DNA of 35,659 bases from Ichthyobacteriaceae bacterium (lineage in GTDB: Bacteria > Bacteroidota > Bacteroidia > Flavobacteriales > JADGDT01): assembly GCA_016744755.1 (NCBI GenBank), contig JADGDT010000024.1, positions 1-35,659 of the forward strand, read 5' to 3'. The position numbers and the translations under genes are program-made. Within the stretch, counting starts at the first letter, position 1. Every line of letters starts with the position of its first letter. This document shows positions 13,301-29,289 of this stretch, in pieces. The notes below the pieces were generated by a model that saw only the letters and a program-made list of their open reading frames with translations, did not search any database and was not told the DNA's origin.

Positions 13301-13355
13301 GTGGGGAAGTTATCAACATAGTGGTAAAAAGTGGTGAATTGTGTGTAATTGTGTA
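13301..13355 (+). promoter_or_regulatory. Phased GTG-box array, putative MraZ operator
   Basis: GTGGG at 13301, GTGGT at 13321, GTGGT at 13331, GTGTG at 13341 and GTGTA at 13351 all share one 10-bp phase, with 5-bp AT-rich spacers. The slot at 13311 is skipped. MraZ proteins are known to bind direct repeats about 10 bp apart upstream of mraZ (TGGGN with 5-bp spacers in E. coli, AAAGTG-type boxes in Mycoplasma). The last box lies just upstream of the -7 element at 13366, which fits autoregulation of the whole cluster. The skipped slot contains TTATCAACA (13310-13318), one mismatch from a consensus DnaA box. Confidence 0.7.
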
Positions 13356-13365
13356 GTATTACTCT

Positions 13366-13373
13366 TATATTTG
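13366..13373 (+). promoter_or_regulatory. -7 box (TATATTTG) of the dcw cluster
   Basis: TATATTTG matches TAnnTTTG and lies 19 bp upstream of the mraZ ATG. TTG at 13349-13351, inside the operator array, is the nearest possible -33 element (14-bp spacer). Confidence 0.6.
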
Positions 13374-13392: not shown

Positions 13393-13848
13393 ATGGAAAA
13401 TCTATTTGGCACATACGAATGTAAGATTGATGCTAAGGGCCGATTGCTACTTCCTTCTTTGTTAAAGAAGCAGTTAGCTCCGTTTTTAGGTGATGGTTTT
13501 ATTCTGAAAAGGTCAATTTTCGAGGAGTGCCTTGAGTTGTACACCATGGCAGAATGGCGTACTGTTACGGATGAATTACGAGAAAAAAGTAGATTCAAGA
13601 GAAAAAACATGACTTTCTTTCGAAGATTTACTGCTGGAGTAAAACCGATAGATTTAGATGGAACGGGACGAATGTTAATAGCTAAAGATCTTGTTTCGTT
13701 TTCAGGTATTCAAAAAGAAGTTGTGTTGACGGTAACTGTAGGAAACATAATAGAAATATGGGATAAAAAACGTTACGAAGATGTTATTAACGATCCAGAT
13801 GTTGACTTTGGAGATTTAGCAGAAGAAGTAATGGGAGATTTAGATTAG
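13393..13848 (+). CDS. mraZ: Transcriptional regulator MraZ
   Basis: A 151-residue DNA-binding protein of the SpoVT/AbrB fold, first gene of the dcw cluster. Two tandem MraZ motifs are visible: FGTYECKIDAKGRLLLPS near the N-terminus and GVKPIDLDGTGRMLIAKDL in the second half. MraZ oligomerises and represses (E. coli) or activates (Mycoplasma) its own cluster. The phased boxes immediately upstream fit autoregulation. The next gene starts 32 bp downstream. Length is as expected. Confidence 0.95.
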   Translation: MENLFGTYECKIDAKGRLLLPSLLKKQLAPFLGDGFILKRSIFEECLELYTMAEWRTVTDELREKSRFKRKNMTFFRRFTAGVKPIDLDGTGRMLIAKDLVSFSGIQKEVVLTVTVGNIIEIWDKKRYEDVINDPDVDFGDLAEEVMGDLD

Positions 13849-13880: not shown

Positions 13881-14786
13881 ATGGCAGAAGAATACCACAT
13901 ACCAGTTTTGTTCGATCAATGTATCGAAGGTTTGAAGATTAAAGAAGGTGGTATTTATGTAGATGTTACCTTCGGAGGTGGGGGTCATTCTCGTGGAATT
14001 ATTTCTAAGTTAGGAGAAAAAGGTAAGTTGTTTGCTTTTGATCAAGATAAAGATGCAATTGAAAATTCAATTGACGATGAGAGGTTTACTCTTATTAATA
14101 TGAATTTTAAACATATAAAAAATTACTTGCGACTTCACGGTGTAAAAAAAGTAGATGGGATATTGGCTGACTTGGGAGTTTCTTCTCATCAGTTTGATGT
14201 TGCAGAACGTGGATTTTCTACTCGTTTCGATGGTAGATTAGATATGAGAATGAATCAAAGTGCTCCTTTATCGGCATTTGAAGTAGTAAACGAATATGAG
14301 TTAGAAGATCTAACTAGGATACTTCGCGATTATGGAGAGTTGAAAAATGCATGGAAAGTAGCTAACAAAATTGTTGATTCTCGTGAAGAAAATACAATAG
14401 TAACTAACGATGATTTAAAGGCATTAACACTAAGTCTAGCTCCTAGAAATAGAGAGAATAGATTTTTTGCACAATTGTTTCAGGCTATTCGTATAGAGGT
14501 TAATCAAGAGATGGAGGTTTTGAAATCTTTTTTAGAGGCTAGTAATGAAGTATTAAACCCCGATGGTAGATTGGTGGTTATGTCTTATCATTCACTAGAA
14601 GATAGGTTAGTTAAGAGGTATATGAAAACAGGTTTGTTTCATGGCGAACCAGAAAAGGATTTTTACGGAAACATTGATGTTCCTTTTAAGGTAATCACAA
14701 GAAAAGTAATTATTCCTAATGAAGAAGAAATTGCTAGAAATAGTAGAGCTAGGAGTGCCAAACTTAGAATCGCAACAAAACTGTAG
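13881..14786 (+). CDS. rsmH: 16S rRNA (cytosine(1402)-N(4))-methyltransferase RsmH (MraW)
   Basis: A 301-residue S-adenosylmethionine-dependent enzyme that N4-methylates C1402 of 16S rRNA. It starts with the characteristic EEYHIPVLFDQCIEGL, followed by the SAM-binding YVDVTFGGGGHSRGI. ILADLGVSSHQFDVAERGFS, then DMRMNQSAPLSA, then FFAQLFQAIRIEVNQEM and VMSYHSLEDRLVKRYM are family hallmarks, as is the terminal NSRARSAKLRIA. Its stop abuts the ftsL start with no gap, implying translational coupling. Confidence 0.97.
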   Translation: MAEEYHIPVLFDQCIEGLKIKEGGIYVDVTFGGGGHSRGIISKLGEKGKLFAFDQDKDAIENSIDDERFTLINMNFKHIKNYLRLHGVKKVDGILADLGVSSHQFDVAERGFSTRFDGRLDMRMNQSAPLSAFEVVNEYELEDLTRILRDYGELKNAWKVANKIVDSREENTIVTNDDLKALTLSLAPRNRENRFFAQLFQAIRIEVNQEMEVLKSFLEASNEVLNPDGRLVVMSYHSLEDRLVKRYMKTGLFHGEPEKDFYGNIDVPFKVITRKVIIPNEEEIARNSRARSAKLRIATKL

Positions 14787-15113
14787 ATGGATAGTAAAGA
14801 TCAAAATATAGGCTCTATTGTTAAAGGAGGTTTTTTTAACTCTAATTTTCTATTCGATAACTATAAGCTGATTGTATTACTTGTAAGTATCGCTTTGGTA
14901 AGCATAGTTAGTTCTCATTCAACAGATACTAAAATATATAGAATAAGAAAATTAGATTTAGAAGTAAGGGAATTAAAGTCAGAGTTTGTATCGGTTCGTA
15001 CAAATTTAATGAATGCAAGAATGGGATCAAATTTGCAAGAAAAAGTAAAAGCTTTAGGGTTAGAGTCTTCAACAACTCCTCCTTTTGTAATTAAGACAGA
15101 AACGGAAGATTAA
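14787..15113 (+). CDS. ftsL: FtsL-like cell division protein
   Basis: A 108-residue bitopic membrane protein: short cytoplasmic N-terminus, one membrane segment at about residues 27-44 (LIVLLVSIALVSIVSS), then a periplasmic coiled-coil-like stretch rich in Leu, Glu, Lys and Arg (about 48-76). Sequence conservation in this family is very low. The call rests on topology, size and position between rsmH and the FtsI-type protein, where ftsL sits in other Bacteroidota. FtsL works with FtsQ and FtsB to activate FtsWI in the divisome. Confidence 0.8.
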   Translation: MDSKDQNIGSIVKGGFFNSNFLFDNYKLIVLLVSIALVSIVSSHSTDTKIYRIRKLDLEVRELKSEFVSVRTNLMNARMGSNLQEKVKALGLESSTTPPFVIKTETED

Positions 15114-15114
15114 T

Positions 15115-17100
15115 TTGGAACAGGTAAAGAAAAAAATATTAAATAGATTGTATCTAGTAGTAGGTTTACTTCTGGTAGTTTTTGTTGTGATTCTTGGAAC
15201 TGTTTTCAAAATTCAGTTTGTTGAAGGAGACCATTACAGAGCTATTGCTGATAAGCAAACTATAAAACTTCATACCATAAAAGCTAGACGAGGTAATATT
15301 TATACCGAAGATGGAAGCCTTTTAGCAACCTCAGTTACAAAATACGATATTTCTATTGATCCTACAGTAGCTACAAATAAAGTATTCAACGAAAATATTG
15401 ATGCTCTTTCCGATTCTATTTACAGAGTTTTCGGGGCAAAATCAAAATATTATTATGCTGATAAACTAACAGCTTTAAGAAAGAAGGGTAAAAGATATAT
15501 GCGACTCAAAAATAACTTGAGTTATGATGACTATAAGCGTTTCAGAAATTTTCCATTGCTAAATAAAGGGAGATTCAAGGGAGGCATTGTTGTTAGTGAA
15601 AGATTAGTAAGGGAGCACCCATTAGGTAAAGTTGCAGAAAGAACAATTGGAGGAACAAAAGAAATTACTTCTGTTGGGCTCGAAGGTGCTTACTCTAGGT
15701 ATTTAGGAGGAATAGATGGTAGTGTACTAAGTGTAAGACTTCAGAAAAATGCTTGGAAACCACTAGCAGCTAAAAATGAAATTGATCCAAAAGACGGAGC
15801 AGATATTTATTCTACTATAGATGTACATATTCAAGATGTTGCACATTTTGCTTTATTGCGCCAGTTAGAAAAATTTGAAGCCGATCATGGTTCTGTAGTA
15901 GTTATGGAAGTTGAAACCGGTAAGGTTAAGGCAATTGTTAATCTTGCTAGAAACTCAAAAGGAAAATATTACGAAAGATTTAATTACGCAATTTCTGAAG
16001 CAGTAGAGCCAGGATCTACATTTAAATTACCTGTACTAATTGCAGCTTTAGAAGATGGAGTTGTAGATACAAGTCAAGTTGTAGATACAGGAAAAGGTAA
16101 ATTCAAAGTTTACAATCGTACAATTAGAGATTCTCACCACGGCGGTTTCGGAAAAATTTCTTTAGCCGAAGTATTTACAGAATCTTCAAACGTAGGTATG
16201 GCAAAAGTGATTCTAGAAAATTATGTAAAATACCCATCTAAGTTATTAGATAGATTATACTCTATGGGTATTGACAAAAAAGTTAATGTAAGTATTTTAG
16301 GAGAAAAAGCTCCATTTATACCTGTTCCGGGAACTAAAGAATGGTCTGGTTTGAGTTTGCCATGGATGGCTTACGGATATGGGATACACATGACTCCATT
16401 GCAAATTTTGACTTTTTACAATGCCATAGCAAACGATGGTGTGCAGGTGAAACCTTATTTTGTATCAAAAATTAAAGATGAAGATCAGAAGATAAAAACA
16501 GTTCATACACAGGTTATAAATTCTAGAATTTGCTCAGAGGATAATGTCAAAATTGCTCAGGCTTTACTTGAAGATGTTGTAGACCACGGAACAGGAGTAG
16601 GGCTTAAGATGAAGAATTTGAGCATAGCGGGAAAAACAGGTACAACACAAGTAGATTATTGGAAAAATGGAAAAGAAGGAGTTCAGTACAGAGCATCTTT
16701 TGTTGGATATTTCCCTACAGAAAACCCAAAATATTCTGCAATTGTAGTTGTAAACAAGCCTAATAAGAGAAAAGGGTATTACGGAGCACAAGTTGCGGCA
16801 CCTGTTTTCAAAGAAATTGCTGTTAAGATTTATCACGATGGACCAGAGGTTCAAGATAAAAAAGTATTACTAGAAAATCCTGAACTACTAAGGGATATAA
16901 ATAACAGTAAAACAGCAAGTGTATCGCGTAAAGGTTTAATGCCAAACGTAAAAGGTGTACCTGCAAGAGATGCTATTTATTTACTAGAAAACATGGGGTT
17001 AAAAGTAACTATGTCTGGCTCAGGAGTAGTTAGGAAGCAATCTATAGCTCCAGGAAGAAGAGTAAAGAAGAACAACAAAGTTAATTTAGTATTGATGTAA
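15115..17100 (+). CDS. ftsI: Septal peptidoglycan transpeptidase FtsI (PBP3-type) with C-terminal PASTA domain
   Basis: A 661-residue class B penicillin-binding protein that cross-links septal peptidoglycan with FtsW. One N-terminal membrane anchor (about residues 10-32), a pedestal domain (ARRGNIYTEDGSLLATSV) and the transpeptidase domain follow. Its catalytic motifs are STFK (nucleophile Ser301), SSN (357-359) and KTGT (507-510). The C-terminus (about 605-661: LMPNVKGVPARDAIYLLENM and onwards) is a single PASTA domain, unlike E. coli FtsI and like Bacteroidota and Gram-positive relatives. The start is TTG at 15115, 1 bp after the ftsL stop. No ATG lies nearby, so a weak start may tune its level. 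Its stop overlaps the murE ATG by one base. Confidence 0.95.
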   Translation: MEQVKKKILNRLYLVVGLLLVVFVVILGTVFKIQFVEGDHYRAIADKQTIKLHTIKARRGNIYTEDGSLLATSVTKYDISIDPTVATNKVFNENIDALSDSIYRVFGAKSKYYYADKLTALRKKGKRYMRLKNNLSYDDYKRFRNFPLLNKGRFKGGIVVSERLVREHPLGKVAERTIGGTKEITSVGLEGAYSRYLGGIDGSVLSVRLQKNAWKPLAAKNEIDPKDGADIYSTIDVHIQDVAHFALLRQLEKFEADHGSVVVMEVETGKVKAIVNLARNSKGKYYERFNYAISEAVEPGSTFKLPVLIAALEDGVVDTSQVVDTGKGKFKVYNRTIRDSHHGGFGKISLAEVFTESSNVGMAKVILENYVKYPSKLLDRLYSMGIDKKVNVSILGEKAPFIPVPGTKEWSGLSLPWMAYGYGIHMTPLQILTFYNAIANDGVQVKPYFVSKIKDEDQKIKTVHTQVINSRICSEDNVKIAQALLEDVVDHGTGVGLKMKNLSIAGKTGTTQVDYWKNGKEGVQYRASFVGYFPTENPKYSAIVVVNKPNKRKGYYGAQVAAPVFKEIAVKIYHDGPEVQDKKVLLENPELLRDINNSKTASVSRKGLMPNVKGVPARDAIYLLENMGLKVTMSGSGVVRKQSIAPGRRVKKNNKVNLVLM

Positions 17101-18575
17101 TGGAAATGAAGCTGAAAGACATACTAAAAAATATAAAAACTTTAAGTCAGGTTGGAGATGATACTGTTGAGGTCTCATCCATTGAATTTGATTCAAGGAA
17201 AGTAACGAAAGGAAGTGTTTTTGTAGCAATCAACGGCGTTGCTGTAGATGGTCATAAATATATTTATAAAGCAATTGAGTTAGGAGCTAGCGCAATAGTT
17301 TATCAGAATAAAGAGGCAGTTGAAAATTTCAATGATGCAGATGTTTCTTTTGTACAAGTTGATGACTCAAAAGAAGCACTAGGATTAATGGCTTCTAATT
17401 TTTACGATAATCCTTCGTCAAAACTAAAACTTGTAGGAGTAACTGGTACAAATGGTAAAACTACTATTGCTACTCAATTGTACACTTTGTTTGGGTTGCT
17501 TGGATATAAAACAGGATTGTTTTCAACTATAAAAATAATGGCTGGCGAAGAGGAAATTGTTTCTACTCATACAACTCCAGACCCTGTAACACTTAATAAA
17601 TATTTGAATCAAATGCTTGATTCTGGTGTTACACATTGTTTTATGGAAGTTAGTTCTCATGGAGTTGATCAGCGTAGAATTGCTGGATTAGAATTTACAG
17701 GAGGAGCTTTCACAAACATAACCCGCGACCATTTAGATTATCACAATACTTTCAGAGAGTATTTAAATGTAAAGAAGAGATTCTTTGATGAATTACCAAA
17801 ATTAGCATTTGCTATTTCTAATAGTGATGATAAAAATGGTTTTGTGATGTTGCAAAATACAAAAGCCACAAAGTTGACTTACTCAATGAAATCTGTAAGT
17901 GATTATAAAGTTAAACTTATTGAAAGTCATTTCAATGGAATGCTTCTTAAGATTGCAGATAAAGAGATTTGGACAAAACTGATAGGAAAATTCAATGCAT
18001 ATAATTTACTAGCAATTTATGCAGTTGCTATTGAGCTAGGAGAGGATACTGATGAGGTTCTTACGGCAATTAGTAAACTAGAAAATGTTACTGGCAGATT
18101 CGATCATTTCTTGTCAAGTACAGGTGTGATTACGGTTATAGATTACGCTCACACTCCCGATGCACTAAAAAATGTATTGGAAACAATTAACGACATCCGT
18201 ACAGGAAACGAAAAGTTGATAACAGTAGTTGGTTGTGGAGGCGATAGAGATAAAGGTAAACGCCCAGAAATGGCAAGGATTTCTTGCGAGTTGTCTAACA
18301 AAGTTGTTTTGACTTCTGACAACCCACGAACAGAAAAACCAGAAGATATTATTGCCGATATGGAAGCTGGTGTTCCGGGAGAGTATTATAACAAAACTGT
18401 TTCTATTACCGATAGAGAGCAAGGAATAAAATCAGCGTGCCAAGAAGCAAATGCAGGAGATATTATTCTAATTGCAGGTAAAGGACACGAAACATACCAA
18501 GATGTGATGGGAGTAAAACACGATTTTGATGATTTCGAAAAAGCTAAAACAATACTAACCTTACTAAAAAAGTAG
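17100..18575 (+). CDS. murE: UDP-MurNAc-tripeptide ligase MurE (meso-DAP-type)
   Basis: A 491-residue cytoplasmic Mur ligase that adds the third stem-peptide residue to UDP-MurNAc-L-Ala-D-Glu. The N-terminal uridine-binding domain ([20 protein letters not shown]) precedes the ATP-binding P-loop GTNGKTT (residues 116-122), HTTPDPVTL, and [13 protein letters not shown]. The DNPR motif (407-410) is the signature for meso-diaminopimelate rather than lysine, so this organism should have meso-DAP peptidoglycan. The ATG overlaps the ftsI stop by one base (TAATG), a coupled start; a second ATG follows two codons later. MraY begins 1 bp after its stop. Confidence 0.96.
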
Positions 18576-18576
18576 C

Positions 18577-19815
18577 ATGTTATATTATTTATTTAATTAT
18601 TTGAATGGACTGTTTGATTTACCTGGAGCAGGTATGGTCAATTCTATCTCTTTCCGTGCAGCAATGGCGATTATATTTTCTTTGATAATAGCTACACTTT
18701 ACGGTAAGAAAATAATTTTATACATACAGGCAAAGCAAGTTGGCGAAACTGTTAGAGACCTTGGTCTTGAAGGTCAGAACCAAAAAGCAGGTACACCTAC
18801 AATGGGAGGAGTAATAATAATCCTTGCTACAGTTCTGCCAGTTCTACTTTTTGCGAAACTCGAAAATATTTATGTTATCCTTTTATTGATAACTACTTTC
18901 TGGATGGGAACAATTGGGTTCATAGATGATTACATTAAAGTATTTAAAAAAGATAAAGAAGGTTTAAAAGGAAGATTCAAAATAGTAGGTCAGGTAGTAT
19001 TGGGATTAATAGTTGGAGGAATGTTATATTTTAATGAAGATGTAACTATTAAAGAAAAAGTCCAATATTCTACAGAGCAATTATCAGAATTTAAAGCTCA
19101 AGGTATTACACCACCTATTTTTAAAGAAGAACATAAATCGCTTAAAACAACTATCCCTTTTGTAAAAGGAAATGAGTTTAGTTATAAAAGTTTGATTTCT
19201 TGGATGGGAGATGGAGCTGAAGATTATGCTTGGTTAATTTTTATACCAATTGTTATTTTCATTATCACAGCAGTTTCAAACGGGGCAAATCTAACAGACG
19301 GAATAGATGGACTTGCAGCAGGATCATCGGCAATAATGGGAATCACTCTCGCAATTTTAGCATGGGTATCAGGTAATATTATTTTTGCTGATTATCTCAA
19401 TATCATGTACATACCACATTCAGGTGAAATCACAATTTTTATTGCGGCATTTATAGGAGCATTGGTTGGTTTTTTGTGGTTCAACGCTTATCCAGCTCAA
19501 GTTTTTATGGGCGATACAGGTAGTTTAACTATTGGAGGAATTATTGCAGTTATTGCAATTATAATTCGTAAAGAAATGTTGATACCAATTATTAGCGGTG
19601 TTTTCTTAGCAGAGAATCTATCAGTAGTAATTCAGGTGGCTTATTTCAAATACACAAAAAACAAATATGGAGAAGGTAAACGAGTGTTTTTAATGGCACC
19701 ATTACACCATCATTATCAGAAAAAAAATTATCACGAAAGTAAAATAGTCATACGTTTTTGGATTATAGGAATTATGCTAGCAGTAGTATCTGTAGTTACC
19801 TTAAAGGTAAGGTAG
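18577..19815 (+). CDS. mraY: Phospho-MurNAc-pentapeptide translocase MraY
   Basis: A 412-residue polytopic inner-membrane enzyme that transfers phospho-MurNAc-pentapeptide to undecaprenyl phosphate, giving lipid I. Conserved blocks are [32 protein letters not shown] (in parts [18 protein letters not shown]), [23 protein letters not shown] and the cytoplasmic [12 protein letters not shown]. It is about 50 residues longer than E. coli MraY because of a polar insert (about residues 155-210) between two membrane segments, which I recall as typical of Bacteroidota MraY. It is followed by 170 bp of repeat-bearing non-coding DNA before murD, the only sizeable break in the cluster. Confidence 0.97.
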
Positions 19816-19897
19816 TGGATTCCTAGTTTGACCTAGTAGAGTGCGAAGACAATATGAGAGTCAGTTTTTTAATGTAAATGTTGAATTTAAAAATAAC

Positions 19898-19939
19898 AAA
19901 GCTAAAAGCCACAGTCCAATAGCTATAGGCAAATACTTA
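19898..19939 (+). repeat. Degenerate heptad repeat (AAAGCYA type) between mraY and murD
   Basis: Six consecutive 7-bp units: AAAGCTA, AAAGCCA, CAGTCCA, ATAGCTA, TAGGCAA, ATACTTA. The first two are clear and the rest decay. The same unit type occurs at 35514-35562. It is followed at once by a GAGCGGAGCCGAAGG hairpin. Confidence 0.5.
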
Positions 19940-19944
19940 TAAGG

Positions 19945-19966
19945 TTCCTGAGCGGAGCCGAAGGAA
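19945..19966 (+). repeat. REP-like hairpin (TTCCTGAGCGGAGCCGAAGGAA)
   Basis: TTCCT (19945-19949) and AGGAA (19962-19966) bracket a core of GAGCGGAGCCGA. The CCTGAGCGGAG-CGAAGG type of sequence recurs as a dispersed intergenic palindrome in several bacterial groups, from memory. It lies 19 bp upstream of the murD ATG and inside the presumed dcw transcript. Confidence 0.55.
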
Positions 19967-19985
19967 TTAAAACAAATAGAAAAAA

Positions 19986-21338
19986 ATGAATAAAAACATT
20001 TCCATACTAGGAGCAGGCGAAAGCGGAGTTGGTGCAGCTATTTTAGCTCAGAAACTTGGCTACGGAGTTTTTGTTTCTGATATGGGAACTATTAAAAATA
20101 AGTACCTAGAAGAGTTAAAAGAAAATAGTATAAATTTTGAACAAGGAAAACACAGCGAAGAAATTATTCTAGCAAGTGATGTTGTTATAAAAAGCCCTGG
20201 AATTCCAGATACGGTCCCTTTAATTATTGAATTGAACAGAAAAGGAGTTGAGGTTATTTCAGAAATTGAATTTGCTTCGCGATATACCGATGCCAAAATT
20301 ATAGCTATTACTGGAGCAAATGGTAAGACTACAACAGCAATGTTGACTTATTCTATTTTTAAAGATGCTGATTACAACGTTGGCTTAGCAGGAAATATAG
20401 GTAAGAGCTTTGCTAGACAAGTAGCAAGAGAAGATTACGATTACTATGTTTTGGAATTAAGTAGTTTCCAGTTAGATGGAATTAATACTTTCAAACCACA
20501 CATAGCTATTTTACTAAACATCACACCAGATCATTTAGATAGGTATGATTATAAGTTTGAAAACTATAGAGATTCAAAGCTGAGAATTGCAATGAATCAA
20601 ACAGAAGAAGATTACCTAATTTACGATGCAAACGATGAAGGTAATTTGTCAGGATTAGAAAACAATCCTATAAAATCGATTAGAGTTCCTTACGGTGAAA
20701 ATATCATCGAACAAGGGAAAAAAATATACGGAGAATTGAACGAAAAGACTATCGAAATGAGATTTGAAAACGAAACAACAACAATGACTATACAGGATTT
20801 GGCTCTGCAAGGAAACCACAATGTGAGAAATTCTATGGCAGGAGGTATGGCTGCAAAGTTATTGGGTGTACATAACAAAAATATAAGAAATGCCCTTTCT
20901 AATTTTGAAGCTGTAGAACACAGATTAGAAAATGTGGCTCGATTCGAAGGAATCAATTTCATTAATGATTCTAAAGCAACAAATGTTAATGCAACGTTTC
21001 ACGCTTTAAACTCAATGAAGAAAACTACAGTTTGGATAGTTGGCGGTGTAGATAAAGGAAATGACTATTCTGACCTACTTCAATTTGTTAGAGGGAAGGT
21101 AAGAGCTATAGTTTGCTTGGGAGTAAATAATTCTAAAATACTTAATGTATTTGAAAATGAGGTAGATGTAATTACCGAAACACAATCAATGCAAGATGCT
21201 GTAAATACAGCGTATACACTTGCTAAAAATGGTGATAATGTATTACTTTCGCCGGCTTGTGCAAGTTTCGATTTATTCGAAAGTTACGAGGATAGAGGTA
21301 GTCAATTCAAACAAGAAATAAATAAGTTAACGAAGTAG
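19986..21338 (+). CDS. murD: UDP-MurNAc-L-alanine:D-glutamate ligase MurD
   Basis: A 450-residue cytoplasmic Mur ligase that adds D-Glu to UDP-MurNAc-L-Ala. The N-terminal Rossmann-like domain starts ISILGAGESGVGAAILAQKL. The P-loop is GANGKTT (residues 110-116). Other family blocks are LELSSFQLDG, NITPDHLDRYD, GNHNVRNSMA, EHRLENVARFEGINFINDSKATN (in parts EHRLENVA, FINDSKATN) and LLSPACASFDLFESYEDRG (in parts LLSPACASFD, YEDRG). Length is normal. It follows a 170-bp repeat-bearing spacer. FtsW follows after 49 bp. Confidence 0.97.
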   Translation: MNKNISILGAGESGVGAAILAQKLGYGVFVSDMGTIKNKYLEELKENSINFEQGKHSEEIILASDVVIKSPGIPDTVPLIIELNRKGVEVISEIEFASRYTDAKIIAITGANGKTTTAMLTYSIFKDADYNVGLAGNIGKSFARQVAREDYDYYVLELSSFQLDGINTFKPHIAILLNITPDHLDRYDYKFENYRDSKLRIAMNQTEEDYLIYDANDEGNLSGLENNPIKSIRVPYGENIIEQGKKIYGELNEKTIEMRFENETTTMTIQDLALQGNHNVRNSMAGGMAAKLLGVHNKNIRNALSNFEAVEHRLENVARFEGINFINDSKATNVNATFHALNSMKKTTVWIVGGVDKGNDYSDLLQFVRGKVRAIVCLGVNNSKILNVFENEVDVITETQSMQDAVNTAYTLAKNGDNVLLSPACASFDLFESYEDRGSQFKQEINKLTK

Positions 21339-21387
21339 AAAAGGTTTAAGTCAAAGGCAAATAAATCAGCCTAATGCAAAATTAAGT

Positions 21388-22641
21388 ATGAAAGAATTTT
21401 TACAAAATTTAAAGGGAGATAAAGTAATCTGGGGCATCGTTTTTGTTATGGCGATTACTTCGGTTGTTATTGTCTACAGTGCTATCAGTAATCTAGCTTG
21501 GCGTTCGTCAGATGGTGGTAGTGTTTTTATTTTGTTATTTAAACATTCAATATTTTTAGTTTTAGGTTTGGCAACAATGTATGGAGCTTATAAAATTCCA
21601 TACAAATTCTTTTCATCACTGTCTGCATTAATGATTCCAATAGTAGTTGTATTGTTACTATTTACACTAATGCAAGGCAAACAGATTTCAGGAGCTAACG
21701 CAAGTAGATGGATACAGATACCGTATGTTGGAATGGGTATTCAAACCTCTACTATTGCCTCAATTATTTTGTTTACATACGTTGCAAGGTACTTGGCAAA
21801 GATTCAAGATAAAGTAGTAAAATTTAAAGATACATTATTGCCATTATGGTTACCTGTTATTACTATTGCAGGGTTAATATTACCAGCCAATTTTTCTACA
21901 GCAGCATTGTTAGTGCTTAATGTTGGAGTTATACTTCTAGTTGGAAGATACCCTATTAAACATTTAGCAGTAATGGTTTTGGTTGGGTCTATTACTTTAT
22001 CATCTTTTGTAGGTTTAGCAGTTAATTATCCTGATGCATTCCCTAATCGGGTTCATACATGGGCTAGTCGTTTAGGTTACGAAATAAGCAAAGAGGAAGG
22101 ACTTACAAAGTTGCCAGAAAATAAGAAAGAACAATATCAAGTAGAATCAGCAAAAATAGCTGTGGCTATTGGAGGAGTATTCGGACAAGGCCCTGGTAAA
22201 AGTGTTCAGAAAAATCACTTACCACAGTCTTCTTCAGATTTTATTTTCGCAATAATTATAGAAGAATTTGGTTTTATTGGAGCATTAGGACTAATAGTTC
22301 TTTATGTATTTTTCCTTGTTAGAGTAGTAATAGTATCGGGTAAAGCCCCAACAATATTTGGTTCCTTGCTGGTTTTAGCATTAGGAATACCAATAATTTT
22401 ACAAGCATTGGTAAACATGGCTGTAGCTGTTGGATTATTCCCTGTTACTGGTCAACCTTTACCTTTCATTAGTAGTGGAGGTACATCTATTTGGATGGTA
22501 GGTTTTGCTATAGGAATGATTTTAAGTGTGAGTAGAGAAACACAAGAGTTAGAAGAAAAAGAAGCCCTAGGGTTAAATAATATTGAGAAAGAAGAAAATA
22601 CTAACGAATTAATTGGAGCAGAGCTTGAAGAAGTCATATAA
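21388..22641 (+). CDS. ftsW: Septal peptidoglycan glycosyltransferase FtsW (SEDS family)
   Basis: A 417-residue inner-membrane SEDS polymerase that links lipid II disaccharides into septal glycan, paired with FtsI. About ten membrane segments are visible. Family signatures are [64 protein letters not shown] (in parts [29 protein letters not shown]) and [12 protein letters not shown]. The acidic C-terminal tail ([20 protein letters not shown]) is cytoplasmic. Its 3' end overlaps the predicted murG start by 29 bp. Confidence 0.96.
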
Positions 22642-23728
22642 CATAATGTTGAGTGGTGGCGGTACTGGAGGACATATCTATCCTGCTGTTTCTATTGCTA
22701 ACGAATTAAAATTGCGATATCCAGATTCGAAGTTTTTATTTGTTGGTTCGAAAGACAGAATGGAGATGGAGAAAGTGCCACAAGCAGGGTACGAAATTAA
22801 AGGTCTTTGGATTTCGGGAATTCAGCGTAAGTTGACTTTAGATAATCTTTCGTTTCCTTTTAAATTGATGTCTAGTTTGTTTAATTCATGGAAATTAATT
22901 CGTGGATTTAAGCCTGATGTGGTTATTGGCACGGGTGGTTTCGCAAGTGGGCCATTGCTTTATATGGCTACTAAAAAAGGGATTCCAACACTTATTCAAG
23001 AACAGAATTCTTATCCAGGAATTACCAATAAGTTGTTGTCGAAATCTGTAAATAAAATTTGTACTGCTTTCGAAGGTTTAGAAAGATTTTTTCCAAAGAA
23101 TAAAATAGTTCTTACGGGAAATCCTATTCGCCAAGATTTAACTGAAAGTAAAGTTAGTAAACAAGAAGCGTCAACTCATTTTGATTTGAGAGCCGAAAAG
23201 AAAACTATTTTAGTACTTGGTGGAAGTTTAGGGGCAAGAGCAGTTAATGCTCAGGTATCAAAAATATTGAGTTGGGTAAAAGAGAATAATTATCAACTTA
23301 TTTGGCAAACAGGAAAATTGTATATCGATGATTACAAGCATCTACAAGAAGAAATGAATTACGATGGCATCAAAATTCAAGCTTTCTTAAATAGGATGGA
23401 TATGGCTTATGCAATGGCCGATGTAATTTTAACAAGATCGGGAGCTGGTACAATCTCAGAATTGTGCGTTGTGGGTAAACCTACAATCTTTGTTCCATCG
23501 CCAAATGTTGCAGAGGATCATCAGACTTTTAATGCTAAGGCACTTTCTAGTAAAGATGCAGCAGTTTTAATTCCCGAAAAGAACATGGAAGAAGAGCTAA
23601 TACCTAGCTTAGAGAAAATATTGAGAGATGAAGAATTAATAAAAAATTTATCAGAAAATATAAATAAGCTGGCTTTGCCAAATGCTTCTAAAGATATTGT
23701 TAACGAAGTAGAATTATTGTTGAAGTAA
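22613..23728 (+). CDS. murG: UDP-GlcNAc:lipid I N-acetylglucosaminyltransferase MurG
   Basis: A 371-residue peripheral GT28 glycosyltransferase that converts lipid I to lipid II. The N-terminal glycine-rich loop is [67 protein letters not shown] and the acceptor/UDP-binding [12 protein letters not shown] are all typical. ATG 22613 overlaps ftsW by 29 bp. An in-frame TTG at 22625 would give a start closer to homologs (LKKSYNI), so the true start is uncertain by a few codons. The stop abuts murC. Confidence 0.96.
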
Positions 23729-25066
23729 ATGGAGTTGAACAAAATACATAACGTTTATTTTGTAGGTATCGGTGGTATCGGGATGAGTGCACTTGCTAAA
23801 TTTTTTATAGCAAAAGGTGCATCAGTTTCGGGCTACGATAAAACTCCAAGCGCTGTAACCGATAGCCTTTTGAAATTGGGAGTAGAAATTATTTTCAAAG
23901 AGGATAAATCAGCAATAGTTAGTGAAGTTGAAAATGATAAAAATACTCTTGTAGTTTACACACCAGCAATTCCATCAGAAAATAATATTCTTAATTTTTT
24001 TAAGGATAATTCTTATAAGATGATGAAAAGATCGGAAGTATTAGGTGTTATTTCACGTGGTTCTTTCTGTCTTGCTGTTGCAGGTACTCACGGAAAAACA
24101 ACTACATCTGCATTACTTGGTCATATTATGTCCGAATCTAAAACAGGAGCTAGTGCATTTGTTGGTGGAGTAATGACAGGGTATAACTCTAATCTTATCC
24201 TTGGCAATGAGAATGTGATGGTTGTAGAGGCCGATGAGTACGATAGAAGTTTCATGCAATTATCTCCAAATATTGCTTGTATTACATCTACCGATGCCGA
24301 TCATTTAGATATTTATGGCGATTCTAGTATTCTTGAAAAAGCATTTATAGATTTTGCTCAGTTATTACCAACAGATGGGATTTTGATTACTAAAGCTGAG
24401 TTAGAAATTTCAGAAGGACTTAAGTATTCAATCAATCAACCTTGCGATTTTTACGCAAAGGATATTACTGTTAAAGATGGTAAGTTTCATTTTAGTATTC
24501 TTACAGGTAGGGGAGATATTTATTTAGATGTAAAAAGTAATTTACCTGGAAGATATAATATAGAAAATACTTTAGCCGCTTTTGCAATGGCTCATCAATA
24601 TGGTTTGCCAGGAGAAGAAATAGTAAGGGCAATAGATAATTTCGAAGGCATTTACAGAAGATTTAACATGTTTGATTTTGGGTATAAAGTAATTGTAGAC
24701 GATTACGCTCATCATCCATCAGAAGTAGAAGTTGCTTTAGAAGCAGCAAGAGAATTGTTTACTAGTAAAAAGATTGCTGTTGTTTTTCAACCTCATTTGT
24801 ACAGTCGTACTAGAGATTTTGAAAATGAATTTGCTGAGGTTTTATCAAAGTTTGACGAAGTTAATTTACTAGATATTTATCCGGCTAGGGAACTTCCAAT
24901 TTCGGGAGTAACAAGTTTATCCTTATTAGATAAAATTAATAATAAGAGTAAAAAACTGATTGCAAAAGAAGAAATAAGATCAGTATTAAAAAATAGCAAC
25001 TGCGATGTTGTGATGATGCTAGGAGCAGGAGACATAAGTGTAGAAATTGAAAAATTAAAAAAATAG
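23729..25066 (+). CDS. murC: UDP-N-acetylmuramate:L-alanine ligase MurC
   Basis: A 445-residue cytoplasmic ligase that adds L-Ala to UDP-MurNAc, the first stem-peptide step. The N-terminal dinucleotide-like fold reads YFVGIGGIGMSALAKFF. The P-loop is GTHGKTT (residues 119-125). VVEADEYDRSFMQLSP, TSTDADHLDIYGD, GIYRRFNMFD, VIVDDYAHHPSEVE and FQPHLYSRTRDF are family hallmarks. The ATG starts immediately after the murG stop. The ftsQ start follows 2 bp after its own stop. Confidence 0.97.
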   Translation: MELNKIHNVYFVGIGGIGMSALAKFFIAKGASVSGYDKTPSAVTDSLLKLGVEIIFKEDKSAIVSEVENDKNTLVVYTPAIPSENNILNFFKDNSYKMMKRSEVLGVISRGSFCLAVAGTHGKTTTSALLGHIMSESKTGASAFVGGVMTGYNSNLILGNENVMVVEADEYDRSFMQLSPNIACITSTDADHLDIYGDSSILEKAFIDFAQLLPTDGILITKAELEISEGLKYSINQPCDFYAKDITVKDGKFHFSILTGRGDIYLDVKSNLPGRYNIENTLAAFAMAHQYGLPGEEIVRAIDNFEGIYRRFNMFDFGYKVIVDDYAHHPSEVEVALEAARELFTSKKIAVVFQPHLYSRTRDFENEFAEVLSKFDEVNLLDIYPARELPISGVTSLSLLDKINNKSKKLIAKEEIRSVLKNSNCDVVMMLGAGDISVEIEKLKK

Positions 25067-25068
25067 CA

Positions 25069-25797
25069 GTGTTAAAAAAATGGTTAACATATTCTCTTTA
25101 CGTTATCGCAATTGTTGCGGTTGGAGTATTGATGGGTTTTGCTGATGCACGACACGCTAATAAAACTATTTCTGGTTTGAATATTTCTGTAGTAGATTTC
25201 GATACTTTGAAATTTGTAAACGAAGAAATGGTAAGTAAGGTTGTAAGGTCTACTTATGACAGTCTTGAGCATAAGAGTAAAAATGCTGTTGATATTTCGT
25301 TGCTAGAGAAAAAAATTCAGAAAATGAGTTCCGTTGCCAATGCTGAGGTATTTGTAGATATAGAAAATAAATTATCGGTAAAAGTAGAGCAACGTAATCC
25401 AGTAGGTAGAATAATTTCATCTGACTATAATTGTTATTTAGATGTAAATGGTAATAAAATGTCTTTGTCGCCAATGTACACTGCAAATGTTATGTTGATT
25501 GATGGAGAAGTGAATAAAAATAATTTGAATGAAATATATGCTCTGATTACTTACGTTAGAAATAACGAAGTTTTGAAGGCACAATTAGTGAGTATAAGTG
25601 TTGATAAGAATAACGAGTACAGTTTCAGAACCAGAAAAGGAAATCAGGTTATTGAATTTGGAAAGGCAGAAAATATTGAACAAAAATTTGATAAATTATT
25701 AATTTATTATCGCAAAACAGTGTCTGACTTTGGTTGGAGGCGATATAGAAAAATTAATTTAAAATTTGCAAACCAAGTAGTTTGTACCAAAAGATAG
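25069..25797 (+). CDS. ftsQ: FtsQ-type cell division protein
   Basis: A 242-residue bitopic protein: membrane anchor near residues 7-25 (YSLYVIAIVAVGVLMGF), then a periplasmic part with weak POTRA-like and FtsQ-like features (NAEVFVDIENKLSVKVEQRNPVGRII in parts: NAEVFVDIENKLSV, VEQRNPVGRI). It starts with GTG at 25069, 2 bp after the murC stop. Conservation is low, as for FtsQ generally. The assignment leans on topology and on position between murC and ftsA. In the divisome FtsQ recruits FtsL and FtsB. Confidence 0.85.
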   Translation: MLKKWLTYSLYVIAIVAVGVLMGFADARHANKTISGLNISVVDFDTLKFVNEEMVSKVVRSTYDSLEHKSKNAVDISLLEKKIQKMSSVANAEVFVDIENKLSVKVEQRNPVGRIISSDYNCYLDVNGNKMSLSPMYTANVMLIDGEVNKNNLNEIYALITYVRNNEVLKAQLVSISVDKNNEYSFRTRKGNQVIEFGKAENIEQKFDKLLIYYRKTVSDFGWRRYRKINLKFANQVVCTKR

Positions 25798-25800
25798 ATT

Positions 25801-27162
25801 ATGAAAAACTCTGATATAGCTGTAGGTTTAGATATTGGAACAACTAAAATTGTTGCAATTGTAGGTCGTAGAAACGATAGAGGTAAAGTTGAGGTTTTAG
25901 GTGTTGGAAAAACTAAAAGTTTAGGTGTTCACCGTGGCGTAGTGAATAATATTACCAAAACTATGGAGTCGATTCAAGCAGCTATTAGCGAGGCTGAATC
26001 TACATCAGGCGAAGAGATAAAGAGTGTAGTTGTTGGCATTGCTGGTCAGCATATTCGCAGTTTACAGCATACAGATTATATCGATAGAGATAATTTTGAT
26101 GAAGTAATAGAAGAGGAGGATATATTAGAACTAATTAGCCAGGTAAAAAAATTGGTTATGCTTCCTGGCGAAGAAATAATTCATGTTTTACCACAAGAGT
26201 ACAAGATAGACGGACAGAGCGAAATTAAAGAACCCGTAGGTATGTCGGGACGTAGGATAGAATCTAATTTCCATGTTGTTGTTGGTAACGTAGCCTCTAT
26301 CAGAAATATTGGTCGTTGTGTTGTTAACAGTGGTTTAGAATTAGACGATATCACACTAGAACCTATAGCATCTGCCGATTCGGTATTGAGCGAAGAAGAG
26401 AAAGAAGCAGGTGTTGCTTTGATTGATATAGGAGGAGGAACCACAGACCTTGCAATTTTTAAAGATGGAATTATTCGTCACTCGGCAGTTGTTCCTTTTG
26501 GCGGAAACGTAATTACCGAAGATATAAAAGAAGGTTGCTCGATAATTGAGAAACAAGCAGAATTGTTGAAAGTGAAATTCGGTTCGGCTTGGCCAGGAGA
26601 AAATAGCGAAAATGAAATTGTTTCTATTCCGGGTTTAAGAGGTAGAGAACCAAAAGAGGTAACTATGAAAAATCTTTCTAAGATTATTCATGCTAGAGTT
26701 ATTGAAATTGTAGAACACGTCTTTCTTGAGATTAAGAATTACGGTCACGAAGAACCAAAGAAAAAATTAATAGCAGGAATAGTTCTTACAGGTGGAGGTG
26801 CAGAATTAAAGCACATCAGACAAATGGTTGAGTACATAACAGGTATGGACTGTAGAATAGGCTATCCAAACGAGCATTTGGCTAGTGGATCTGATAAACG
26901 TTTAGCATCACCAATATTTGCAACATCAGTAGGCCTTTTAATAAAAGGACTTGATAAAGTTGAGGCTAGAAAAAAATTAGAAGTAGAAGAGGAGGTTGAA
27001 GTAGTAATAGAACCAGAGGTTGTAGTGTTAACCCCAAAAGAGGAAATACCAGAGCCTAATATTGAAGAGAAACCTAAGAAGCCAGAGAAGGTGAAAAAAG
27101 TAAAATCTAATTTCTTAGAAAATTTTGCAACTAAGCTAAGAGAGTTTTTAGAGAATGAATAA
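25801..27162 (+). CDS. ftsA: Cell division protein FtsA
   Basis: A 453-residue actin-like ATPase that tethers FtsZ to the membrane and signals to FtsWI. The phosphate-1 loop is GLDIGTTKIVAIVG (residues 9-22). The SHS2-type 1C domain follows (VVVGIAGQHIRSLQ), then phosphate-2 LIDIGGGTTDLAIF and the adenosine loop LTGGGAELKHI. After about residue 380 there is an acidic, Pro/Glu/Val-rich linker (EVEEEVEVVIEPEVVVL) and a basic segment (KPKKPEKVKKVK). The C-terminus NFLENFATKLREFLENE is a likely amphipathic membrane-targeting helix. The linker is longer than in E. coli FtsA. It precedes ftsZ by 45 bp. Confidence 0.96.
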   Translation: MKNSDIAVGLDIGTTKIVAIVGRRNDRGKVEVLGVGKTKSLGVHRGVVNNITKTMESIQAAISEAESTSGEEIKSVVVGIAGQHIRSLQHTDYIDRDNFDEVIEEEDILELISQVKKLVMLPGEEIIHVLPQEYKIDGQSEIKEPVGMSGRRIESNFHVVVGNVASIRNIGRCVVNSGLELDDITLEPIASADSVLSEEEKEAGVALIDIGGGTTDLAIFKDGIIRHSAVVPFGGNVITEDIKEGCSIIEKQAELLKVKFGSAWPGENSENEIVSIPGLRGREPKEVTMKNLSKIIHARVIEIVEHVFLEIKNYGHEEPKKKLIAGIVLTGGGAELKHIRQMVEYITGMDCRIGYPNEHLASGSDKRLASPIFATSVGLLIKGLDKVEARKKLEVEEEVEVVIEPEVVVLTPKEEIPEPNIEEKPKKPEKVKKVKSNFLENFATKLREFLENE

Positions 27163-27207
27163 GAGATATACAATAGAAGAATTAATAAACCCCAAAATAA
27201 ATTAATT

Positions 27208-29289
27208 ATGAATCAAGACAACATTTCTTTCGATCTACCTAAAAATAGATCCAACGTGATTAAAGTAATCGGTGTTGGTGGAGGAGGTAGTAATGCTGTT
27301 AACTACATGTATAAACAAGGGTTTAAGGGTGTAGATTTTGTAGTTTGTAATACCGATGCACAGGCTTTACACAGTAGTCCTATACCTAACAAAGTTCAAT
27401 TAGGGGTAAATCTTACAGAAGGGCTAGGTGCAGGGGCAAGACCAGAAGTTGGTGGAGAAGCAGCTTTAGAGAGTATTTCTGATCTTGAAACAATGTTAAT
27501 GTCAAGTACTAAAATGCTATTCCTTACAGCCGGAATGGGAGGTGGTACTGGTACGGGTGCTGCACCTGTTATTGCAAAACTTGCGGCTAAACTCGGAATT
27601 CTAACAGTAGGTATAGTTACTATGCCTTTCAAGTTCGAAGGAGCTATAAGAATGAAGCAGGCTCAAACAGGATTAGAAGAGCTTTCTAAATATGTAGATT
27701 CTATGATTGTTATAAACAATAACAAGCTTAGAGACGTGTATGGGAATTTGGGGTTGAAATCTGGTTTTGCAAAAGCGGATGAAGTATTAGCAACTGCAGC
27801 CAAAGGTATATCGGAAGTTATTACAAAAGAATATGGTATGAATATCGATTTACACGATGTTAAAACCGTATTAGAAAAAAGTGGGACAGCAATTATGGGT
27901 GCTGCTATGGCTTCTGGAGAAAACAGAGCTATCAAGGCAATTGTAAAAGCTTTAGATTCGCCATTGCTTAACGATAACAGTATTAAAGGAGCCAAAAATG
28001 TTCTTTTGTTAGTTGTTTCTGGTGAGACAGAAATTACTCTTGACGAAATTGGGGAAATCAATGAGTATATTCAGGATCAAGCAGGTGGTTATGCAAATAT
28101 TATTTTAGGTGCAGGAGATGAAGAAGAAGGAATAGGCGATAATATAAAAATTACAATTATTGCTACTGGTTTTTCTAAAACCCAACAAGATACTATACTA
28201 GATAAGGAACCAGAAAAAACGGTTTATACTTTAGGCGAAAATAATTCTGATGCTACTGAACATAATAGAGTAGAGAGAATTGAAGAAGTTAAAACAGTAA
28301 TAAGAGAAGTAGAGTCTCCAAAAGTATCAACCCCAATTGCAAAGAGAATAGTTCACACACTGGAAGAAGATGTAGTAGATGAGGTGGAATTGCCAATTGC
28401 AGAAAAAGTAGTTGTTACTCCTGTAGAAAATATTGTTGAAGATGTAGAAGAATTAGTAGAATTACCTATTGCTGAAAAGGTAGTTGAGCCAGTTGTAGAG
28501 AATGCTACAAACGAGGTTGAGGTGGAAGCAGTAGATAAAAAGAGTATAATGAACATTTCTGATGACGATATCGTTATTCAGGATATGAGTGATTCTCAAA
28601 CAACTATTGAGTTTGATTTTGGTTCAATAAATAATGCTAATATAGAAGAAGAGAAGGTAGAGCAAGCTCCAGAAAAAAAGATTTTTGATTTAGGTTCAGA
28701 ACTTGATAAAGAGATTGGTGGAGAAGAGAAAGAAGTGAAAACACAGCCTAATGACTTGTACTCCCAAATTGAAGAAACATCGATAAGTAAAGAAATAGAG
28801 CCTCAAACATTTATTGATGGTTCTATTAAGTATAATTTAGAAGATTTCGAGGAACTTGAAAATAAAATTGAAGCTGCAACTCCTACTCAAATTGAAGTAG
28901 TAGAAGAGGTAGAGCCAGAAATGCAAATTCACATTGTAAAAGATGTTGAGCCCCTAGTAGAGAAGGTAGTAGAGAAACAAGTAGTAAATGAGCCTTTGCC
29001 AAAAGAGGATTTTGTAGATCCTACAGATATACCTTTAAGTAAGAGAGAACAAATAGGAAAGGATAGAAGGGAAAGATTAAAGAAATTTAATCACAACTTT
29101 AAAACTAGAAGCATAAATCCATCATCGGTTGATGATTTAGAGAGACAACCTGCTTATCTTAGAGCTGGAATAGATGTAACTTCGTCAGAAAAAAGAAATA
29201 GTGCCTCTAGATATTCTATTGGTAATAATGGTGAAGAAGATGTAGTATTAAGAAAAAATAATTCGTTTTTACACGATAACGTAGATTAG
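27208..29289 (+). CDS. ftsZ: Cell division protein FtsZ with long C-terminal linker
   Basis: A 693-residue tubulin-like GTPase that forms the Z-ring. The globular core spans about residues 15-330: GVGGGGSNAVN (22-32), nucleotide T-loop GGGTGTGAAP (111-120), MIVINNNKLRD. It is followed by a roughly 300-residue acidic, low-complexity linker, far longer than the E. coli linker. The linker holds three degenerate copies of a PIA-E/K-K-V-V motif beginning at Pro376, Pro396 and Pro420. The conserved FtsA-binding peptide appears as QPAYLRAG (647-654), and a further 39-residue tail ends NNSFLHDNVD. The long linker and tail are, from memory, usual for Bacteroidota. YqeY begins 2 bp after its stop. Confidence 0.97.
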   Translation: MNQDNISFDLPKNRSNVIKVIGVGGGGSNAVNYMYKQGFKGVDFVVCNTDAQALHSSPIPNKVQLGVNLTEGLGAGARPEVGGEAALESISDLETMLMSSTKMLFLTAGMGGGTGTGAAPVIAKLAAKLGILTVGIVTMPFKFEGAIRMKQAQTGLEELSKYVDSMIVINNNKLRDVYGNLGLKSGFAKADEVLATAAKGISEVITKEYGMNIDLHDVKTVLEKSGTAIMGAAMASGENRAIKAIVKALDSPLLNDNSIKGAKNVLLLVVSGETEITLDEIGEINEYIQDQAGGYANIILGAGDEEEGIGDNIKITIIATGFSKTQQDTILDKEPEKTVYTLGENNSDATEHNRVERIEEVKTVIREVESPKVSTPIAKRIVHTLEEDVVDEVELPIAEKVVVTPVENIVEDVEELVELPIAEKVVEPVVENATNEVEVEAVDKKSIMNISDDDIVIQDMSDSQTTIEFDFGSINNANIEEEKVEQAPEKKIFDLGSELDKEIGGEEKEVKTQPNDLYSQIEETSISKEIEPQTFIDGSIKYNLEDFEELENKIEAATPTQIEVVEEVEPEMQIHIVKDVEPLVEKVVEKQVVNEPLPKEDFVDPTDIPLSKREQIGKDRRERLKKFNHNFKTRSINPSSVDDLERQPAYLRAGIDVTSSEKRNSASRYSIGNNGEEDVVLRKNNSFLHDNVD

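Follow-up and report, generated by a model that had tools for sequence, protein, structure and literature searches.

Five GTG triplets stand at multiples of 10 bp in front of mraZ in the stretch of DNA analysed here, 35,659 nucleotides from an Ichthyobacteriaceae bacterium (hereafter the window). This raises the question of whether they form a binding site for MraZ, a protein known to repress its own synthesis along with the cell-division genes, and, if so, whether MraZ acts there alone. An earlier note, made from the letters only, had proposed five boxes in strict phase. Re-reading the window bore out all five GTG starts (13301, 13321, 13331, 13341 and 13351), but only four boxes are contiguous (13321-13360). 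These are box 1, GTGGTAAAAA (13321..13330), box 2, GTGGTGAATT (13331..13340), box 3, GTGTGTAATT (13341..13350), and box 4, GTGTAGTATT (13351..13360), all on the forward strand. Boxes 3 and 4, with GTGTG and GTGTA, are off the GTGGTA consensus. The spacers, described in the note as 5 bp of A and T, are mostly but not wholly A/T. The GTG at 13301 is set off by a different element, the DnaA-box-like 9-mer TTATCAACA (13310..13318, forward strand), which occupies the slot that the note had simply skipped. It is true that no GTG box lies in that slot, but an element conserved in its own right was thereby overlooked. The outlying box GTGGG (13301..13305, forward strand) may be an optional MraZ box beyond the 9-mer, to judge from relatives: in 39 of 130 of them a GTG of this kind precedes box 1 by 21 bp, or two helical turns, with the 9-mer in between, the distance being 20 bp in the window.

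Three GTGs at 10-bp steps occur in the window only at the array, as two overlapping matches where 0.02 would be expected. When the 433-bp intergenic region was subjected to 50,000 dinucleotide shuffles, runs of four never arose and runs of three arose 35 times. The whole 3.64-Mb genome contains 14 matches to the pattern, seven of them in one (GT)n repeat and two in the mraZ array, and outside the repeat the array is the only run of four. Both the shuffles and the whole-genome scan thus indicate that the spacing is not due to chance.

The 10-bp phase is kept in close and distant relatives alike. Runs of three or more GTGs spaced by exactly 10 bp were present in 116 of 134 distinct Flavobacteriales mraZ upstream regions (0.02 in shuffles), and in 130 of 154 when more families were added. 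In the 134 regions 241 pairs of GTGs were 10 bp apart, as against three at 9 bp and four at 11 bp. The consensus reads TTATYAACAAA GTGGTAAAAA GTGGTAAAAA GTGGTAA; the fourth box base is G in 94-100%, and the GTGG positions are nearly invariant among Flavobacteriales arrays. Two or more phased GTGs were also found in 34 of 37 regions from other families of the class and in 21 of 23 from other classes of the phylum, with about one expected in each set. Most relatives have three contiguous boxes, whereas a fourth is shared by the window and L002, its closest relative.

The array also depends on mraZ. Among 60 relatives the pattern GTGG-N6-GTGG-N6-GTGG occurs exactly once in 35 genomes, and in 34 of these 35 it lies at mraZ (G010 is the exception). 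In 16 genomes without detectable mraZ, the rsmH loci had no MraZ reading frame next to rsmH and no array upstream of it, the longest run being 0-1 in 15 genomes and two in the other. In one genome lacking mraZ (G014) a 9-mer with a GTGG was set aside, as it does not lie near rsmH. It might be argued that the phased GTGs reflect chance, composition or A-tract bending without any specific protein, as the region is AT-rich and its A-runs are in helical phase. All shuffle tests, the mraZ dependence, the nearly invariant GTGG positions and the conservation contradict this explanation, to which we give almost no credence. The phase across class and phylum, the absence of the array where mraZ is absent and the resemblance to the 10-bp GTGGG array of Escherichia coli instead make it very likely, as far as sequence can tell, that the array is an MraZ operator of an ordinary kind. 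The proposal of a Bacteroidota MraZ operator has therefore received strong support from the conserved phase, the dependence on mraZ and the single genomic target.

The array is positioned at the promoter of mraZ, the gene heading the dcw cluster. mraZ (13393..13848, forward strand) encodes 151 amino acids, with the PDB entries 1n0e, 9qlg and 9sx6 as MraZ relatives; the protein is 67% identical to that of the nearest named relative, an Ichthyobacteriaceae MAG. The second dcw gene, rsmH/mraW, follows at 13881..14786 on the same strand (TIGR00006, 5.9e-93). The remainder of the cluster (14787..29289, forward strand) comprises an ftsI-like PBP gene, murE, mraY, murD, ftsW, murG, murC, ftsA and ftsZ, together with two open reading frames assigned by their position in the cluster: a candidate at the ftsL position (14787-15113, 108 amino acids) and another at the ftsQ position (25069-25797).

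The -7 promoter element TATATTTG (TAnnTTTG) lies at 13366-13373 on the forward strand, 10 nt past 13355, in agreement with the distance given in the note. In 107 of 130 relatives the last GTG is followed by TANNTTTG at a spacing of 15-16 bp. A TTG at the N18-20 position was found in none of 114 mraZ promoters but in all 28 of the relatives' hup promoters with TANNTTTG. From this spacing and the missing TTG it follows that the array occupies the -33 region, as the note had supposed. Such occupancy fits repression by occlusion, and it suggests that the mraZ promoter may be intrinsically weak or in need of help. A Sigma-70 promoter scan and an Rfam scan added nothing.

What, then, is the element beside the array? 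DnaA, the initiator of replication, has the consensus box TTWTNCACA (as given in PMC7561715), from which the 9-mer TTATCAACA differs by one mismatch, A at position 6. In the window alone it is insignificant without comparison: TTWTNMACA occurs 17 times, with 18.4 expected. Across relatives, TTATNNACA is present in 125 of the 134 Flavobacteriales mraZ upstream regions, as against 3.5 in shuffles, the variants being TTATTAACA (61), TTATCAACA (58), TTATCCACA (3) and single others. Position 6 is A in nearly all Flavobacteriales copies, where the consensus has C. A start 11 bp ahead of box 1 is seen in 107 of 130 cases, and the 9-mer usually ends 2 bp short of the box. In the window and L002, with their fourth box, it still adjoins box 1 and so stands one 10-bp unit farther from the promoter. 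It is missing in one relative of the same genus (L003), and no 9-mer was seen near the array in other classes of the phylum (0/21).

In other families of the class (f1, f2, f5, f17, f18, f21 and f25 are anonymous labels for families of the compared genomes) the element shifts strand and distance yet stays near the array. Exact TTWTNCACA is found beside the array in f17, f18 and f21 and in three Flavobacteriales (L022, L023 and L025). In f17 TGTTGAAAA or TGTGGAAAA lies on the other strand, mostly 16 bp upstream of box 1 (9/9), and in f18 TGTGGATAA, TGTGGAAAA or TGTGCATAA, all exact and on the reverse strand, lie mostly 37 bp before it (11/13); f21 has TTTTCCACA. A canonical TTWTNCACA within 45 bp upstream was found at 16 of 34 non-Flavobacteriales arrays, as against 0.7 in shuffles and 0/34 in a reversed control. 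Two genomes without mraZ (L236 and L239) keep a DnaA-like box without the array. We made no claim for the one copy of TTTTCCACA 244 bp upstream of mraZ in E. coli, which is too far away and too short. By these comparisons the DnaA-like companion of the array can with high confidence be called a conserved element.

The same 9-mer recurs at other genes. Pairs of the form TTATNAACA-N10-12-TTATNAACA gave 40 matches in 29 genomes, as against four for the reversed pattern. These comprised 27 at hup (24 identified by tblastn and three by coordinates), nine at dnaB, one at dprA and three elsewhere. The hup pairs, of the TTATYAACA type, have starts 20-21 bp apart and precede the HU start codon by about 105-165 bp in the majority of the Flavobacteriales examined (L256, L260, most of L289-L307, L310 and L312); in f5 (L314-L317) a 9-mer pair upstream of hup is absent. 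The pairs at dnaB, which encodes the replicative helicase, lie 50-80 bp upstream of the gene and downstream of accA (L320, L323-L325, L327, L328, L337, L347 and L351). Two pairs within coding regions were set aside, one of TTATCAACA inside valS of the window's own genome (L250) and one at L255. Three 9-mers each were observed upstream of dprA in that genome (G000: the canonical TTATCCACA, TTATCAACA and TTATTAACA; L249, 1901-2047) and in G002 (TTATAAACA, TTATTAACA and TTATTAACA; L338, 1501-1650), with nearly the same spacing in both.

In Flavobacteriales the distance between the 9-mer and box 1 is tightly kept, in the window despite the added fourth box, and this might mean that the 9-mer is itself part of the MraZ site, either as a box that has diverged or as flanking sequence that sets the position of the first subunit. 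Its change of strand and distance in f17 and f18 argues against this, as does its presence without GTG boxes at hup, at dnaB and in the two genomes lacking mraZ, and we consider this explanation very improbable. An element separate from the MraZ boxes would have its own reader, and the comparisons point to DnaA, a reading that we hold to be probable but well short of assured. The variable positions of the 9-mer coincide with W3 and N5 of the DnaA consensus, and the genes that it accompanies belong to replication, the nucleoid and division. The DnaA protein itself offers a possible reason for the replacement of C by A at position 6. The recognition helix of DnaA reads the TnCACA half of the box, and the T435M mutant is defective (PMC5742627). 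Where E. coli has RDHTTV, with T435, most of the Flavobacteriales DnaA proteins sampled (dnaA loci L281, L278, L273 and L280) have [RK]DHATV, the exception f5 has KDHSTV, and f18, a clade with exact boxes, has RDHTTV; the DHATV signature could thus have altered the preferred base. This covariation is suggestive only, being confounded by descent and having exceptions: G058 has A with TTATCCACA, and f5 has S with TTATTAACA.

In Flavobacteriales, mraZ, hup and dnaB might nevertheless be controlled by a different regulator that reads TTATYAACA, the array itself still being an MraZ operator. The almost constant A at position 6 speaks for such a protein. So does the behaviour of TTATCCACA, which in three complete Flavobacteriaceae-level genomes is unclustered and rarer than a reversed control. 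The pair spacing at hup and dnaB, with a gap of 11-12 bp, is also unlike that of E. coli DnaA, which prefers boxes 2-3 bp apart (PMC11317965). On the other side are the degeneracy at W3 and N5, which is that of a DnaA box, the canonical boxes beside the array in f17, f18, f21 and the three Flavobacteriales, the replication and nucleoid genes among the targets, and the DHATV helix outside f5. In addition, at dprA a site that is TTATCCACA in G000 is TTATAAACA in G002, at matching spacing. On balance a regulator other than DnaA seems unlikely, though far from negligible. Neither among DnaA-box clusters nor around dnaA did the f1 and f2 genomes show a clear oriC composed of TTATYAACA, and the origin-like clusters of f5 use TTATCCACA. 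An oriC candidate in G441 (f25; L251, 1246-1495) mixes three copies of TTATCCACA with three of TTATCAACA.

How might the two elements work together? From what is known of MraZ, an oligomer would place its subunits one after another on GTG boxes spaced by a single turn of the helix. Because the array fills the -33 space upstream of TAnnTTTG, bound MraZ would be expected to exclude RNA polymerase and so repress its own operon. DnaA at the 9-mer may then act as an activator, an antirepressor or a competitor of MraZ, given a mraZ promoter without the usual -33 TTG, and could tie dcw transcription to replication status. On the whole it appears highly likely that MraZ shuts down the dcw operon by sitting on its promoter, with DnaA as a probable second input. 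To a wider proposal we would give about an even chance: that in Bacteroidia MraZ and DnaA jointly switch the dcw promoter and DnaA directly controls mraZ-dcw, hup and dnaB, in most Flavobacteriales through an altered box (TTWTNAACA) and an altered recognition helix (DHATV), thereby coordinating replication, nucleoid protein and division. The conserved 9-mer, common to hup and dnaB, is in any case an easily mutated candidate for a link from replication initiation to transcription of the whole division cluster. We found no report in the open-access literature of an MraZ array paired with a DnaA-like box or of a regulon of the 9-mer. Since the search covered open-access papers, the novelty of the pairing is provisional.

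DnaA control of division genes has precedents. In Bacillus subtilis DnaA binds the ftsL promoter region, and DnaA control of this gene and of Caulobacter ftsZ (PMC8203912; PMC11019786) resembles the present case in that the promoter carries a DnaA-type box and the operon includes genes of the rsmH/ftsL type. The difference is that here the TTATYAACA variant is fixed beside an MraZ array and DnaA is its presumed reader.

The array itself belongs to a known kind of operator, as its likeness to the sites of E. coli, Mollicutes and Burkholderia cenocepacia indicates. The earlier statement that its boxes differ from those of both E. coli and Mycoplasma was overstated: the E. coli sequence is GTGGGAAATTGTGGGGCAAAGTGGGAATAA, that of mycoplasmas AAAGTG[T/G], and WAAGTGGTAA fits both GTG cores. 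The E. coli operator (Eraso et al. 2014, cited in PMC8475190) likewise has GTGGG three times at 10-bp intervals, and GGGG in addition, before mraZ, and GTGGGAAATTGTGGGGCAAAGTGGGAATAAGGGG lies directly before mraZ in strain MG1655. The E. coli boxes are GTGGG; they precede the start codon by about 10-45 bp and reportedly follow the -10 box (PMC7761207), whereas those of the window are GTGGT or GTGTN, upstream of the -7 element and over -33. In Mollicutes MraZ recognises direct repeats of AAAGTG[T/G] (Fisunov et al. 2016, via PMC8475190); boxes of the AAAGTGG/AAAGTGT type likewise precede mraZ, and Mycoplasma genitalium has a single genomic site (PMC8475190). The promoter context is different there, and an adjoining DnaA-like 9-mer is not mentioned in the accounts consulted. 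The B. cenocepacia site has four 7-nt GTG repeats with 3-nt spacers, again a 10-bp period, and MraZ binds it in gel shifts; it overlaps the transcription start, while the array of the window lies over the -33 region (PMC7761207). Repeated GTG has already been called a conserved feature of MraZ sites in distant bacteria (PMC7761207), and the array described here would extend this known operator to the Bacteroidota.
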